From an uncultured Pelagibacteraceae bacterium (GTDB lineage Bacteria; Pseudomonadota; Alphaproteobacteria; Pelagibacterales; AG-422-B15): a DNA stretch of 47,375 bases. This document shows positions 3,332 through 16,080 of this stretch, piece by piece (position 1 is the stretch's first letter; each line of letters opens with the position of its first letter). The translations under genes were made by a program, and so were the position numbers. A model generated the notes under the pieces. It ran no database searches. It was not told the origin of the DNA and saw nothing but the letters and a program-made list of their open reading frames with translations. The stretch is from assembly GCA_902518955.1 (NCBI GenBank), contig CABYIR010000010.1, positions 1 through 47,375 on the forward strand, in the 5' to 3' direction.

Positions 3332-4672
3332 CTAATTAAATTTTGAAAAATAAGATGATATCTGCTCTCCAATATGATCCAATTTCTCAGGGTTATCACA
3401 TTCTATCATTACCCTCAAAACTGGTTCTGTTCCAGACATTCTCTCAAAAATTCTTCCATCAGATGATAATTCTTGTTTATAACTTTCTATTAAAGTTTTA
3501 GTTTCTTTCTTTTCAAGGACCTTCATATCACTGATATTAAAATTAAGAAGCTTTTGGGGAACTGCCTCAAAGACATTTAATATCTGGCTTGATGTCCCTT
3601 TACTATCTTTCAATATGGACAATATTTTTAAAGCAGTAACCATCCCATCTCCAGATGAGCCATGGTCTCTCATAATAATATGACCTGATTGCTCTCCACC
3701 TAAGCTTAAATTCTTATTCAGGATTTCTTCTTTAATGTATCTATCTCCAACTGAAGTACGTATCAATTTTATAGAATGTTCAATTAATTTCTTCTCAAGA
3801 CCAAGGTTCGACATAGCAGTTGCAACAACTGTATCCTCTCTAAGATTATTCTCTGCTTTCATTGATACTGCTAATAGACCCAGTATTTGATCACCGTCAA
3901 TAATTTTACCGTTATCGTCACAAACTATTAAACGATCACCATCACCATCTAAAGCAAATCCAATATCTGCTTTTTCTTTTAGCACAGTGTGTACCAGCAT
4001 TGAAGTATCGGTTGATCCACACTCTTTATTAATGTTGAGTCCATCGGGGTTTACTCCAATTTTTATTACTTCAGCTCCTAATTCATACAATATTGTTGGG
4101 GCAGATATATATGATGCACCATTCGCACAATCAATTACCACCTTCAAACCCTCTAGTGACTTACTTTTTGGAAATGTATTTTTTACAAACTCAATATAAC
4201 GAGCATTAGCATCTTCAAGCCTTTTAGCTCTTCCTATATGCTCTGGCTCAGCAAGTTTTTTTTCAATTTCTTTATTCATCAAGCTCTCAATTTCCATTTC
4301 AACTTGATCAGACAATTTGTTTCCAAACTTATCAAAAATTTTTAATCCATTATCATGAAATTTATTATGAGATGCTGTGATCATAATGCCAATATCAGCT
4401 CTCATTGATTTAGTTACAAGAGAAACACCTGGTGTTGGTATTGGGCCTAATAAAAATACATCCATTCCCATAGATAGTAAACCAGCTGTGACAGCTTGTT
4501 CAATCATATAGCCAGATAGTCTTGTATCTTTTCCTATGACCACTCGATGTCTATGTGCGCCATCTCTAAAGTGATCACCGAGAGCCATTCCTAATAGCAT
4601 AAGAGTATTTCCATTTAGTTTAGAGCTATTTGCTCTATCTCTTATTCCATCAGTTCCAAAAAATTTTTTCAT
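3332..4672 (-). CDS. glmM: Phosphoglucosamine mutase GlmM
   Basis: Interconverts glucosamine-6-phosphate and glucosamine-1-phosphate, feeding UDP-GlcNAc for peptidoglycan and LPS. The phosphoserine loop TASHNKFHDNG places the active Ser at 101. The Mg-binding motif DGDGDR is at 242-247 and the sugar-binding loop GGEQSGH at 325-331. The C-terminal phosphate-binding loop is RMSGTEPVLRVM. Length 446 is standard. The start is fixed by a one-base overlap with the folP stop (TAATG), so the two are translationally coupled. The order ftsH-folP-glmM is the common one in proteobacteria, and purA follows. Confidence 0.97.
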   Translation of the reverse strand: MKKFFGTDGIRDRANSSKLNGNTLMLLGMALGDHFRDGAHRHRVVIGKDTRLSGYMIEQAVTAGLLSMGMDVFLLGPIPTPGVSLVTKSMRADIGIMITASHNKFHDNGLKIFDKFGNKLSDQVEMEIESLMNKEIEKKLAEPEHIGRAKRLEDANARYIEFVKNTFPKSKSLEGLKVVIDCANGASYISAPTILYELGAEVIKIGVNPDGLNINKECGSTDTSMLVHTVLKEKADIGFALDGDGDRLIVCDDNGKIIDGDQILGLLAVSMKAENNLREDTVVATAMSNLGLEKKLIEHSIKLIRTSVGDRYIKEEILNKNLSLGGEQSGHIIMRDHGSSGDGMVTALKILSILKDSKGTSSQILNVFEAVPQKLLNFNISDMKVLEKKETKTLIESYKQELSSDGRIFERMSGTEPVLRVMIECDNPEKLDHIGEQISSYFSKFN

Positions 4673-5748: not shown

Positions 5749-7668
5749 CTAAGATTGAGGTTTTGGCTTTAATTCTGGTACAATCTTGGGCTTAAAGCCT
5801 GTCTTACCACTTTTGGGGACAGAAGGGCCAGCGTTTTTGATTTCTTCTTCAGGGTCAGGACGGTTAATTGATCCATCTTTGATCAAAGATAATATTTCAT
5901 CGCCACTCAAGGTTTCATAATCTATGAGACCTTTTGCTAATTTATGCAAATCTTCAATTTTATCTTCTAAAATAGATCTGGCTTTATCATAGCAAGTGTC
6001 GACAATTAATCTAATTTCACTATCGATTAATTTTGCTGTCTCTTCGGATACATTCTGATGCCTTTGGACAGATCTTCCTAAAAAAACCTCTTCTTCATTC
6101 TCTCCATATTGAATCGGACCTAATTTCGAACTCATTCCAAATTTTGTAACCATATTTCTGGCCATTTTAGTCGCCATCTCAATATCAGAGGATGCTCCAG
6201 ATGTAACTTTTGACGTTCCAAAAATTATTTCTTCTGCAACTCGACCTCCCATGGCAACTGTAATATCTGCATACATTTTTTCTCGTGGAAGAGATAGTTG
6301 ATCTCTTTCTGGCAGTCTCATAACCATACCTAAAGCTCTTCCTCTTGGTATTATAGTTGCCTTATGAATTGGATCAGAAGCAGGTTGATTTATTGCTACT
6401 ATTGCATGGCCACCTTCATGATAAGCAGTAAGTTCTTTCTCTTCTTGCGACATTACTAGTGAACGTCTTTCAGCCCCCATCATTACTTTGTCCTTAGCTT
6501 CCTCAAAATCAATCATTGTCACAATTTTTTTATTTTTTCTAGCAGCTAACAAAGCAGACTCATTGACAATGTTAGCAAGGTCTGCACCAGAAAAACCAGG
6601 AGTACCCCTAGCAATAGTTCTTATATCGACGTCTGGTGCAGCTGAAATTTTCTTCATGTGAACTTTCAAAATTGCCTCGCGTCCAATTATATCAGGATTT
6701 GGAACAACAACTTGTCTATCAAATCTACCAGGCCTTAATAAAGCTGGATCTAAAACATCTGGTCTATTTGTTGCAGCAACAAGAATTATTCCTTCCTGTG
6801 TGTCAAAACCATCCATCTCAACTAAAATTTGATTTAAAGTCTGTTCTCTCTCATCATTTCCACCTCCAAGACCAGCACCTCTACTTCTTCCAACTGCATC
6901 AATCTCGTCAATAAATATAATACATGGCGCATGTTTCCTCCCTTGTTCAAACATGTCTCGAACACGAGATGCGCCGACACCTACAAACATTTCTACAAAG
7001 TCTGATCCAGATATAGTAAAGAATGGAACACCCGCCTCACCTGCAATTGCTCTTGCTAGCAAAGTTTTACCTGTTCCAGGGGGGCCAATTAATAATGCAC
7101 CTTTTGGAATTCTTCCACCAAGCTTTTGAAATTTTCGCGGATCCTTTAAAAAATCTACTATCTCAACTAACTCTTCTTTAGCTTCATCAATACCAGCAAC
7201 ATCATTAAATGTTACTTTATTTTTATTTTCAGTTAAAAGTTTAGCTTTCGAACGACCAAAACCCATTGCTCCACCTTTGCCACCTTGCATTTGTCTCATA
7301 AAGAAGATCCATACACCAATTAGTAAAAGCATTGGGAACCATGAAATAAGTATACCTAAAAGTGATGGATACCCATCATCGAGTGGAACTGCTGATATAT
7401 TTACACCTCTCTCATTCAGACGATCAACTAAGGTTGGGTCATTAGGCTCATAAGTTTTAAACGAACGCCCATCTGAATACTTGCCTGTAATATCTTTTCC
7501 TTTAATTACTACATCAGTTATTGATCCGGCATCTACTTCATCTAGAAACTGAGAATAGGTAAGCTCAATACTCCTTGAATTATCTGATCCTGGTCCCCCA
7601 AAGAGGTTAAAAAGACCGAACGCGATAAAAGCAATAAATAGCCATAAGGCAACATTTTTAAGATTCAT
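5749..7668 (-). CDS. ftsH: ATP-dependent inner-membrane zinc metalloprotease FtsH
   Basis: Membrane-anchored AAA+ protease for quality control of membrane proteins and of regulators such as RpoH and LpxC in E. coli. Two transmembrane helices at about 6-24 and 103-124 flank a periplasmic domain. The AAA domain has Walker A GPPGTGKT (195-202), Walker B IIFIDEID (250-257) and the second region of homology ending in RPGRFDR. The zinc site is HEGGH at 417-421 (the HEXXH type), and the [10 protein letters not shown] stretch carries the third ligand Asp. Length 639 is typical. A 92-bp gap upstream contains a candidate heat-shock promoter. folP, glmM and purA follow closely. Confidence 0.97.
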
Positions 7669-12911: not shown

Positions 12912-13316
12912 TTATTCAATAAGAGGTTTTGTGATTAGAGCAACTTTTGTAAAACCAGATCCTGATAACTCACCTAGTACTCGCATTACTCTTCCATAAT
13001 CAATGATTGCATCTCCTCTTACATATATTTTTGTATCAAGTTTGTTATTTGTAATAGCTGTCAACTTTGGCACAAGTTCTTTTAATTCGATTTCTGTTTC
13101 TTGAATAAAAATATCTCCATTTTTTGATATAGTAATCTCGAGTGGCTCATCATTTGTTTGAATTGAGTCAGCATTACTCTCAGGTAAATCAACCTGAACT
13201 CCAACTGTAAGTAGAGGAGCTGTCACCATAAAAATTATTAATAGAACAAGCATGACATCAACAAATGGAGTTACGTTAATCTCACTAAATGGCTTGGATT
13301 TTATTTTTCTAGCCAC
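12912..13316 (-). CDS. tolR: Tol-Pal proton-channel subunit TolR
   Basis: ExbD/TolR family subunit of the TolQR motor. One transmembrane helix at about residues 17-37 carries the essential Asp20 in the motif NVTPFVDVMLVLLIIFMV. A small periplasmic domain to residue 134 follows. The start codon is GTG (13316-13314); no ATG is available upstream and the N-terminus aligns with family members. It sits 8 bp after tolQ and 19 bp before tolA. Confidence 0.95.
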   Translation of the reverse strand: MARKIKSKPFSEINVTPFVDVMLVLLIIFMVTAPLLTVGVQVDLPESNADSIQTNDEPLEITISKNGDIFIQETEIELKELVPKLTAITNNKLDTKIYVRGDAIIDYGRVMRVLGELSGSGFTKVALITKPLIE

Positions 13317-13324
13317 AAAAACTT

Positions 13325-14035
13325 TTAACTTTCGTTCTTTGAGCTTATGCTTCTTGAAAAAATAACTGAAAAATGTTCCTTAAATCTATACATCTTTGCA
13401 TTTTGATCATTCACTTGATTTGTGAAAATATTATACGCAATAACCGCAGGTATTGCCGCTAACAAACCTAATGCTGTTGCAAATAAAGCCTCTGCAATCC
13501 CTGGTGCTACCACCGCCAATGAAGTATTTCTTGATATAGCTATTGATTGAAATGAATTCATTATACCCCATACAGTTCCAAACAAACCAATGAAAGGAGT
13601 TGTTGATCCAATTGTTGCCAAGTAGTCAAAGTTTTCAGAGAGTTTTTCAGTTTCTAAATCAATAGATGCATCCATTACTCGTTCAATACGTTTTGAAACA
13701 CTCTCATAGTTTTTACTTGATATAGTTTTTGATTTTTCGACTTCCTCAATAGCATCCAAAAAAACTGACCTAATTGGACTATCTGATATATCGGCAGCAT
13801 CCAAAGAAATTGATTTTAGAGATTTTCCAGACCAGAAAATTCCTTCAAAAGATTTTGTTAACTTATTAAGAGATCGAAAGAGTCTAATTTTATGTATGAT
13901 GATGGTCCAAGAAAAAATTGAAGCAGCGAATAAAATCAAAATTACAAGTTTTACAACCAAATCGGCTCTAAAAAATAATGACATGAGTGTGAACTCATCA
14001 TTTATTTGGCCAGCAGTTATTAAATCATTATCCAT
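13325..14035 (-). CDS. tolQ: Tol-Pal motor subunit TolQ
   Basis: ExbB/TolQ family inner-membrane protein that forms the proton channel with TolR. Three transmembrane helices lie at about residues 28-46, 140-162 and 174-198. The conserved block LATIGSTTPFIGLFGTVWGI at the second helix and the GIAEALFATALGLLAAIPAV segment at the third are intact. Length 236 is typical. It heads the tol genes; no ybgC thioesterase precedes it here. Instead the small nuclease gene at 14090-14464 lies 54 bp upstream. Confidence 0.96.
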   Translation of the reverse strand: MDNDLITAGQINDEFTLMSLFFRADLVVKLVILILFAASIFSWTIIIHKIRLFRSLNKLTKSFEGIFWSGKSLKSISLDAADISDSPIRSVFLDAIEEVEKSKTISSKNYESVSKRIERVMDASIDLETEKLSENFDYLATIGSTTPFIGLFGTVWGIMNSFQSIAISRNTSLAVVAPGIAEALFATALGLLAAIPAVIAYNIFTNQVNDQNAKMYRFKEHFSVIFSRSISSKNES

Positions 14036-14089: not shown

Positions 14090-14464
14090 TTATTCTTCTT
14101 TCTCAATTAATAGTTTATACATACTTAAAAAATCATCTAATTTAAGAACACACAATGAGTCACCAGTATCAGTTCTATTTCTTCTAGTAATCACAACTGG
14201 AATATCTCTAGATTCAGATATTTTAATATTTTCTTCTACTTGCTTCATCGATTGATGTATTTGAAATTTCTCAGTTCTTTTTGCTTCTACATAAATGTAA
14301 GGAGTATTTTTTAAGTCACTGCCACCTGAAGATCTAACAGCTCCTCCACCTGATAATGGAGCTCTTTGAACTGTATCTCTACCATCAAAAATTTTTTCAT
14401 TAAAATATTTAGCAAGCTCTCTTTCATACCCGTCACCTTTTCTTTTTGGAGCTTTACCTGACAT
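14090..14464 (-). CDS. Small PD-(D/E)XK nuclease, Hjc-like Holliday junction resolvase candidate
   Basis: A 124-residue protein with the motif order of Hjc-type junction resolvases. It has a basic N-terminus and KGDGYERELAKYF (Glu14/Glu16), then Arg34 in RAPLSGGG with Ser38. Asp50 follows in GGSDL, then the catalytic pair Glu60/Lys62 in YVEAKR, and a Gln-rich helix (Gln71, Gln75). The D-(x)n-ExK pattern is the PD-(D/E)XK nuclease core, and the Glu/Arg/Ser residues before it are typical of archaeal Hjc and phage relatives. It lies between yebC and tolQ, exactly where many alphaproteobacteria carry ruvC-ruvA-ruvB. I infer a branched-DNA nuclease; a restriction-like or phage-derived nuclease with another substrate remains possible. 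Confidence 0.65.
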   Translation of the reverse strand: MSGKAPKRKGDGYERELAKYFNEKIFDGRDTVQRAPLSGGGAVRSSGGSDLKNTPYIYVEAKRTEKFQIHQSMKQVEENIKISESRDIPVVITRRNRTDTGDSLCVLKLDDFLSMYKLLIEKEE

Positions 14465-14530: not shown

Positions 14531-15274
14531 TTAAACAAGATCTTCCATTTCACTATCGTCAACATCAAAATTTGAAAAAACCTGTTGAACATCCTCATCA
14601 TTTTCGAGGTCATCAAGAAGGTTAAAAAGTGATTTTGCTTTATCTCCACTTACATTTATTAGACTTGATGGCTTCCACTGAAAACCAGAGGACTTAGGCT
14701 CGCCAAATTTTTTTTCAATCTCAGTATAAAAAGACGATAGCTCATCTGGCATACACAACGCTTCATGCGTATTCTCTTCAAAAAAACAATCTTCCGCTCC
14801 AGCTTCAATTGCTGAATTAAAAAAATCATCTTCATTACAAACAGATTTATCATATTTGATAAATCCATACCTTTTAAATAAATGAGAAACAGAACCTGTT
14901 TCACCAAGAGCGCCTCCAAATTTATTAAAAGATGTTCTAAGATTAGAGGCTGTTCGATTCCTATTATCTGTTAATCCTTCAACTATAATAGCAATACCGG
15001 CAGGACCAAAACCTTCGTATCGAACCTCTTCATAGTTTTCTAAATCTTTATCTGTAGATTTTTTGATAGCTCGATCAATATTATCTTTTGGAAAGCTTGC
15101 AGCTTTTGCAGATTGAATAGCAGATCTTAATCTAGCATTTATACTTGGATCAGGTGATCCCAATTTAGCAGCAACAGTAATCTCTTTTGATATCTTAGCA
15201 AATAAGGCTCCTCTTTTTTTATCCTGAGCACCCTTCCTAAACTGAATATTTTTAAATTTACTATGGCCTGCCAT
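14531..15274 (-). CDS. yebC: YebC/PmpR family protein (TACO1-like)
   Basis: Member of the YebC family, linked in recent work on other bacteria to relief of ribosome stalling and earlier described as a DNA-binding regulator. The N-terminus MAGHSKFKNIQFRKGAQD matches the family signature (usually MAGHSKWANIKHRK). The RYEGFGPAGIAIIVEGLTDN and GSVSHLF segments are conserved. Length 247 is normal. It lies 5 bp after ymdB and 66 bp before the Hjc-like gene. In many proteobacteria yebC is directly followed by ruvC. Confidence 0.94.
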   Translation of the reverse strand: MAGHSKFKNIQFRKGAQDKKRGALFAKISKEITVAAKLGSPDPSINARLRSAIQSAKAASFPKDNIDRAIKKSTDKDLENYEEVRYEGFGPAGIAIIVEGLTDNRNRTASNLRTSFNKFGGALGETGSVSHLFKRYGFIKYDKSVCNEDDFFNSAIEAGAEDCFFEENTHEALCMPDELSSFYTEIEKKFGEPKSSGFQWKPSSLINVSGDKAKSLFNLLDDLENDEDVQQVFSNFDVDDSEMEDLV

Positions 15275-15279
15275 AAATC

Positions 15280-16080
15280 TTACTGCCCTAAAACACCTCC
15301 AACTTTGATAGGAATAATTGATTTTGCCCTATAACTATCACTATAAGACTCAACGATCACTCCACATATTGTTGCTTCTCCAAGAGCTGGTGTAAATCGA
15401 TTTTTAGGCTCATTACCTCGAAATCTATCTAATATCGGTTGCTTATCCATCCCTATAACTGAATCATAATCTCCACACATGCCAGCATCAGTTTGGTAAG
15501 CGGTACCACCTGATAAAATGCATGCATCTGCCGTTGGTATATGTTGATGAGTACCTACCACAGCTGTAACTCTTCCATTCAAATGATGCCCCATTGCTAC
15601 TTTTTCACTAGTTGCCTCAGCATGAAAATCTACAAAAATAAACTTAACTTCTTTTTCATTCTTTAATTTGTTCATTAACTCATCTATTTTTGAAAAAGGA
15701 TTATCATTTGTTTTCATAAAAACATTTCCAATAAGGTTAATTACAATAATTTTTTCATCATTTTCAGTTTTGAATATATTGTACCCTACGCCAGGTGTTC
15801 CTTCAGCAGAATTATAAGGTTTAAGTAATCTGTTATCTTTTTCAATATACTTTGATATTTCCTTTTGATCCCATAGATGGTTTCCAGTAGTAATAGCATT
15901 GGCGCCAGCATTATAAAGTTCACCACAAATTTTTTCAGTTATACCAAAGCCGCCAGCAGCGTTTTCTCCATTAACAATTGTGAAGTCAATTTGATTGTCA
16001 AAATTAATTTTGTGTAAATGTTTGTTAAGAGCCTCTCGACCAGAACGTCCGACAATATCTCCTAGAAATAAAACTTTCAT
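15280..16080 (-). CDS. YmdB-family metallophosphoesterase (TIGR00282 type)
   Basis: Calcineurin-like metallophosphoesterase; B. subtilis YmdB hydrolyses cyclic nucleotides, but the alphaproteobacterial role is not established. Metal-binding motifs in order are FLGDIVGRSGR near the N-terminus (Asp8), NGENAAGGFGIT, TTGNHLWDQKE, VDFHAEATSEK and GTHQHIPTAD. Length 266 is typical. Its ATG overlaps the fthC stop by four bases (ATGA) and yebC follows after 5 bp, so fthC-ymdB-yebC form one coupled unit. Confidence 0.92.
   Translation of the reverse strand: MKVLFLGDIVGRSGREALNKHLHKINFDNQIDFTIVNGENAAGGFGITEKICGELYNAGANAITTGNHLWDQKEISKYIEKDNRLLKPYNSAEGTPGVGYNIFKTENDEKIIVINLIGNVFMKTNDNPFSKIDELMNKLKNEKEVKFIFVDFHAEATSEKVAMGHHLNGRVTAVVGTHQHIPTADACILSGGTAYQTDAGMCGDYDSVIGMDKQPILDRFRGNEPKNRFTPALGEATICGVIVESYSDSYRAKSIIPIKVGGVLGQ

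Follow-up and report, generated by a model that had tools for sequence, protein, structure and literature searches.

The window that we analysed is a stretch of 47,375 nucleotides from a member of AG-422-B15, a family of the SAR11 order (Pelagibacterales) that we refer to as the home family. A small open reading frame on its minus strand (14464-14090) starts with ATG and encodes a protein of 124 amino acids, with the stop codon included in the coordinates. On the basis of the reading frame, profile matches, alignment and a structural model, we annotate the gene at 14090..14464 as a predicted Hjc-like PD-(D/E)XK nuclease of phage type. It is the sole open reading frame between yebC upstream (14531..15274, minus strand; TACO1/YebC family, Pfam YebC E 8.7e-50) and tolQ downstream (13325..14035, minus strand; MotA/TolQ/ExbB E 2.2e-36). 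The three genes are co-directional and separated by gaps of only 66 and 54 bases. The conserved order is prolonged by tolR (12912..13316, minus strand), and its first gene is a reading frame at 15280..16080 (minus strand) that we take, from reading its sequence, to encode a ymdB-like metallophosphatase. The Hjc-like gene has a host-like base composition (GC 31%), and its low dN/dS among relatives (about 0.02-0.18) shows that it is under purifying selection.

The encoded protein belongs to a phage nuclease family. It matches Pfam PDDEXK_15 (PF24608, phage putative PDDEXK endonuclease) at 31.9 bits, above the cut-off of 27, and PHROG 244, which is annotated as a Holliday junction resolvase, with E 8.7e-21. 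The match to the Pfam model of archaeal Hjc (PF01870) reaches 16.6 bits, below the cut-off of 21.1, and there is no match to the RuvC profile (PF02075). All 30 aligned family members match PF24608 at E <= 0.1, and 10 of the 30 match PF01870 at the same threshold. The order of motifs (E14-SD50-E60AK62) is shared with Hjc_15-6 (E10-SD40-EVK55), a Thermus phage enzyme with demonstrated four-way junction cleavage (PMC8805305). The label "Holliday junction resolvase" that the phage families carry is itself an annotation, and PD-(D/E)XK folds also serve many other nucleases.

Structure prediction supports the fold class well and the kinship to Hjc suggestively. The AlphaFold2 model, computed with the 30-sequence alignment, has a pLDDT of 86 and shows the helix-strand-helix-strand order expected for a PD-(D/E)XK fold, with an uncertain glycine-rich loop at residues 39-46. 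The 12 best fold matches in the PDB are Hjc/Hje-type Holliday junction resolvases and the 13th is RecU. All are weak (best E 0.018, TM about 0.35-0.46), and the structural match to Hjc is suggestive without being significant. Searched against a library of viral models, the same model gives matches of up to E 1.2e-9, several of them named Holliday junction resolvase. A PDB profile search with the family recovered the known resolvases 7bgs and 4tkd weakly (E 0.6-0.8), and a PDB sequence search with the single protein returned a designed protein only.

An earlier sequence-only reading of this stretch had described a 124-residue protein alone between yebC and tolQ, carrying Glu14/16, Arg34, Ser38, Asp50 and Glu60-x-Lys62 in the order of Hjc-type resolvases, and had proposed a comparison of its predicted structure with Hjc. 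The protein and its position held; no strand had been given, and it is the minus strand. The residues held as well: E14, E16, R34, S38, D50, E60 and K62 are all invariant in the alignment of 30 sequences from bacteria and viral contigs. The pattern of seven residues is not a product of chance, because this alignment takes in phage relatives just 43-54% identical to the window protein. The structural comparison points to Hjc/Hje-type enzymes only through the weak matches given above.

The place that the gene occupies is a familiar one. In the alphaproteobacterial neighbourhoods that we read at length (L206-L213), the usual order is yebC-ruvC-ruvA-ruvB, in most of them followed by ybgC-tolQ-tolR, and ymdB often lies ahead of yebC; yebC adjoins ruvC in 11 of 12 alphaproteobacterial loci. 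In AG-422-B15 the order is ymdB-yebC-[Hjc-like]-tolQ-tolR, with all five genes in 41 of 42 loci and four of them, in the same order, in the remaining one. The Hjc-like gene was detected in 43 of the 53 genomes of the family and in 12/12 of those with a completeness of 90% or more. The negatives appear to reflect missing contigs, because the three that we checked lack yebC too. What stands in the exact place of ruvC-ruvA-ruvB in AG-422-B15 is a phage-family PD-(D/E)XK nuclease.

RuvABC itself could not be found in the order. Profile searches gave no RuvC in 117 Pelagibacterales genomes (compared with 361 of 387 genomes across the class), no RuvA in the 39 Pelagibacterales genomes tested for it, and no RuvB C-terminal domain (RuvB_C) above cut-off in the 117. 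The RuvC, RuvB and RuvA models all gave matches in the two controls, Caulobacter and E. coli. With the home genome 79% complete, the absences rest on its relatives, which include near-complete genomes. The home genome has RecG, as do most of its relatives. Several candidate matches to RuvB were rejected. Two home-genome matches to RuvB_N, at 28.5 and 21.8 bits, are to sequences that read as ClpX and HslU; a third, at 20.1 bits, lies inside the window's own 639-residue reading frame at 5749-7668, which, from its position, we take to be FtsH. Partial RuvB_C matches in three genomes of the sister family are below cut-off and only 31-35 residues long.

These results bear on the remaining claims of the sequence-only reading. 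Its statement that the ruvCAB interval of many alphaproteobacteria lies between yebC and tolQ is borne out by the neighbourhoods. Intact ruvCAB elsewhere in the genome would have refuted its proposal that a resolvase took the place of RuvC, with RuvAB perhaps lost as well. Searches of the home genome and of the order as a whole did not find such genes, and the alternative that the ruv genes had moved elsewhere is excluded at the sensitivity of the profiles used. Replacement is supported; the enzymatic activity remains inferred and unproven. As to the suggested source, "phage- or archaea-like", the donor looks viral and not archaeal, and archaea-like holds for the fold only.

The evidence for a phage source comes from relatives and from a tree. 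From cultured phages we recovered a single relative, gp22 of Roseobacter phage CRP-810 (51% identity over 94% of the length), the gene for which lies near the phage primase-polymerase. Relatives are also carried by 71 viral contigs, with up to 57-58% identity to proteins of uncultivated marine viruses. We considered whether these might be disguised host contigs and rejected the idea; in the stretches read, neither yebC nor tolQ was seen on any of them. In the tree, 13 bacterial Hjc-like sequences form one clade (support 99/94) lying among viral groups, from which a single acquisition before AG-422-B15 diversified is the likely history. Almost all members of the phage family of CRP-810 carry a Holliday junction resolvase and one is a SAR11 prophage (PMC11288001), a possible and plausible donor route.

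The sister family has a different occupant. In the other family of the order, which we infer to be Pelagibacteraceae (f2), the slot between yebC and tolQ is filled by a protein some 164 residues long, with matches to PHROG 1770 (Holliday junction resolvase; E down to 5e-37) and also to PHROG 159 (RuvC-like). It has no match to Pfam RuvC, and against the NCBI model of cellular RuvC it gives only a faint co-linear match of 15-21 bits (cut-off 163). RuvC-like proteins from cultured phages share about 34-42% identity with it, and proteins from viral contigs 36-46%. We infer that it is a phage-type, RuvC-like resolvase of RNase H fold; its activity has not been shown. Across the order, 156 of 217 genomes have a protein of the PHROG 1770 type. 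All listed carriers belong to Pelagibacteraceae, and the home family, in which it was not found, is among the genomes without. Conversely, the Hjc-like gene was found in none of the Pelagibacteraceae genomes tested; one of these searches had no positive control, and another detected 43 home-family genomes with Pelagibacteraceae silent alongside. We also note that in six Pelagibacteraceae loci (L040, L041, L042, L043, L047 and L050) the RuvC-like protein lies between yebC and ybgC/tolQ and no RuvA or RuvB was found, ybgC being kept in L040, L043, L047 and L050 and absent in L041 and L042.

Other alphaproteobacterial lineages without RuvC and RuvA fill the slot in further ways. RuvC-less genomes that have RuvA, or whose genus-mates have RuvC (G132, G189, G291, G230 and G318), are probable assembly gaps and were set aside. 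Two families with genomes of 1.4-1.6 Mb, f27 and f122, have yebC, then a protein of about 97-112 residues, then tolQ. These Hjc-like proteins of about 100 residues (in L193/L216 at 2265-2555 / 4295-4585; also in L195, L198/L215) match PHROG 2002 (Holliday junction resolvase) with E 8.5e-8 to 2.5e-10, and the predicted structure (pLDDT 78) has archaeal Hjc as its best match, with E about 0.01. The f122 protein is 83% identical to one from uncultivated marine viruses, where the homologous gene directly precedes what reads as a large terminase gene, and in a tree it groups with a virus sequence (support 95/94), apart from f27. A third family with small genomes, f41, has yebC, then a 168-residue PDDEXK_15 protein (E 2.7e-21; L190, 1745-2248; also L191 and L217), then tilS; we found no tol genes in the stretch read. 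The f41 protein shares 45% identity with proteins from jumbo phages of Pseudomonas; a scan of viral contigs found nothing of this type, although cultured jumbo phages carry it. We rejected a close relationship between it and the window gene: there is no significant pairwise match, just a shared remote family.

In a tree built from two neighbouring genes, AG-422-B15 clusters with Pelagibacteraceae (99/99) and f27 with f122 (95/97), and f41 stands alone. Given the grouping of f27 with f122, the occupant type that these two families share may represent one gain and not two. Lineages without RuvC and RuvA show at least four kinds of slot occupant; RuvB lay outside our tests in f27, f41 and f122. 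As separate observations, two single-contig genomes of 1.5 Mb (G369 and G294; L197 and L199) have no RuvC, RuvA or RecG matches, and no reading frame of at least 85 residues follows yebC in the stretch read. A two-contig alphaproteobacterial genome, G281 (L200), likewise has no RuvC, RuvA or RecG matches; members of the same family have RuvC, and the neighbours of its yebC are quite different.

We propose that the window gene encodes the cell's Holliday junction resolvase, and that it was acquired from a marine phage and became fixed in the former ruvCAB slot of AG-422-B15. We consider this likely, with a probability of about 0.8; cleavage is inferred and no biochemical or genetic test supports it. 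In the mechanism that we envisage, a dimer of the protein would bind the four-way junctions left by RecA, E14/E16, D50, E60 and K62 would hold metal ions, and two opposing strands would be cut. Branch migration would fall to RecG (or RadA), because phage resolvases need no RuvAB. A one-gene phage resolvase together with RecG may take over the whole step and so remove the need for ruvA and ruvB at a single blow. Such a takeover would fit a lineage undergoing streamlining, and the scenario leaves undecided whether gain or loss came first.

There is precedent for a phage resolvase that manages without RuvAB. RuvC works with RuvAB in cells. The RuvC of phage bIL67, nevertheless, restores UV resistance to E. 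coli without ruvABC (PMC3864405), and RusA replaces RuvABC provided that RecG is present (PMC5055574).

Could the gene be doing something else? It might encode a phage-derived nuclease for branched DNA or flaps with a broader role in repair or at replication forks, the junctions being resolved by another enzyme (such as YqgF) or avoided by RecG. In its favour, promiscuity towards branched DNA is typical of viral resolvases (PMC3864405), RecG is present, and the fold match to Hjc is weak. We nonetheless regard this explanation as unlikely. The nuclease occupies precisely the ruvCAB slot in all 42 loci, it alternates strictly with another type of resolvase in the sister family, and the slot has been refilled by further resolvase-type nucleases in lineages without RuvC and RuvA, all of which points to the job of RuvC. 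A still weaker case can be made for an anti-phage or selfish element that inserted between yebC and tolQ following a loss of RuvABC that had other causes. Its relatives do occur in temperate marine phages, including those of the CRP-810 type that also infect SAR11. However, the window protein matches no defence family, the gene is fixed across the family with purifying selection and a host-like GC of 31%, and, were the insertion unrelated, resolvase-type nucleases would not be what occupies this one site in several lineages.

The remaining objection is that RuvABC is present and merely too diverged for the profiles, so that nothing has been replaced. The Pelagibacteraceae slot protein lends this some colour, since at 21 bits against a cut-off of 163 it demonstrates that RuvC-fold proteins can escape the Pfam model. 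But our search did not detect that protein in the home family, and it shares 36-46% identity with RuvC-like proteins of phages; the well-conserved RuvA and RuvB are missing too, and the slot is too small to hold them. We consider this possibility all but excluded.

Returning to the phage-derived resolvase as our preferred reading, we infer that other phage resolvases came, in independent events, to fill this slot in further streamlined alphaproteobacteria. The proposed refills are the RuvC-like type in Pelagibacteraceae, the PHROG 2002 type in two families and the jumbo-phage-like PF24608 type in another. We consider it likely that one-gene resolvases from phages have repeatedly displaced RuvCAB in place and probably act together with RecG, with the activities again inferred. 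A bolder reading, which we hold to be more likely than not, is that the ruvCAB slot of streamlined alphaproteobacteria, the whole SAR11 order included, is a replacement hotspot: at least four types of one-gene phage resolvase would have displaced RuvABC in place, the two SAR11 families having different occupants, and RecG would probably remain as the main helicase for branch migration. How many swaps were independent is uncertain without a dense species tree.

SAR11 bacteria are among the most abundant in the sea and recombine heavily. RuvAB has been described as near-universal in bacteria that have RecA, and was missing in only two RecA-bearing genomes in a survey of 117 species (PMC1193525). 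A 2025 paper on SAR11 reports that RecBCD, RecF and MutSL are missing, and its main text does not mention ruv or Holliday junctions (PMC12374537). We found no paper on ruv loss in SAR11 in the literature searched, which did not extend to supplements or subscription papers. If our reading is correct, a virus gene has taken over a core housekeeping step, the ending of recombination, in a simple and testable example. The parallel cases would show which parts of RuvABC can be given up when genomes are streamlined.

How does the window gene compare with known systems? The phage nucleases of PDDEXK_15/PHROG 244, such as CRP-810 gp22, are of the same family and have the same invariant catalytic residues. 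Unlike the gp22 gene, the window gene is chromosomal and vertically inherited, and it stands in a housekeeping slot and not near a phage primase-polymerase. Archaeal Hjc/Hje and phage Hjc_15-6 have the same order of PD-(D/E)XK elements and the same E...SD...ExK motif. Hjc/Hje are also of similar size (about 120 residues) and provide the best PDB fold matches of the model; by contrast with these likenesses, the Pfam Hjc match is sub-threshold and there is no close sequence kinship. RuvC of the RuvABC system shares the position after yebC and, presumably, the job. The two proteins differ in fold (RNase H for RuvC, PD-(D/E)XK for the window protein), and no RuvA or RuvB partner was found for the latter in its genome or in relatives. 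As non-orthologous substitutes for RuvC, RecU of Firmicutes and RusA of E. coli and phage 82 are already known (PMC1193525, PMC5055574), and the window gene is proposed to join them. Unlike the window gene, RecU works with RuvAB, and it is rarely encoded beside the RuvAB genes (PMC1193525); E. coli RusA is not normally expressed (PMC5055574). What sets the present case apart from both is that RuvAB has gone too, and that the substitute stands in the ruv slot itself.
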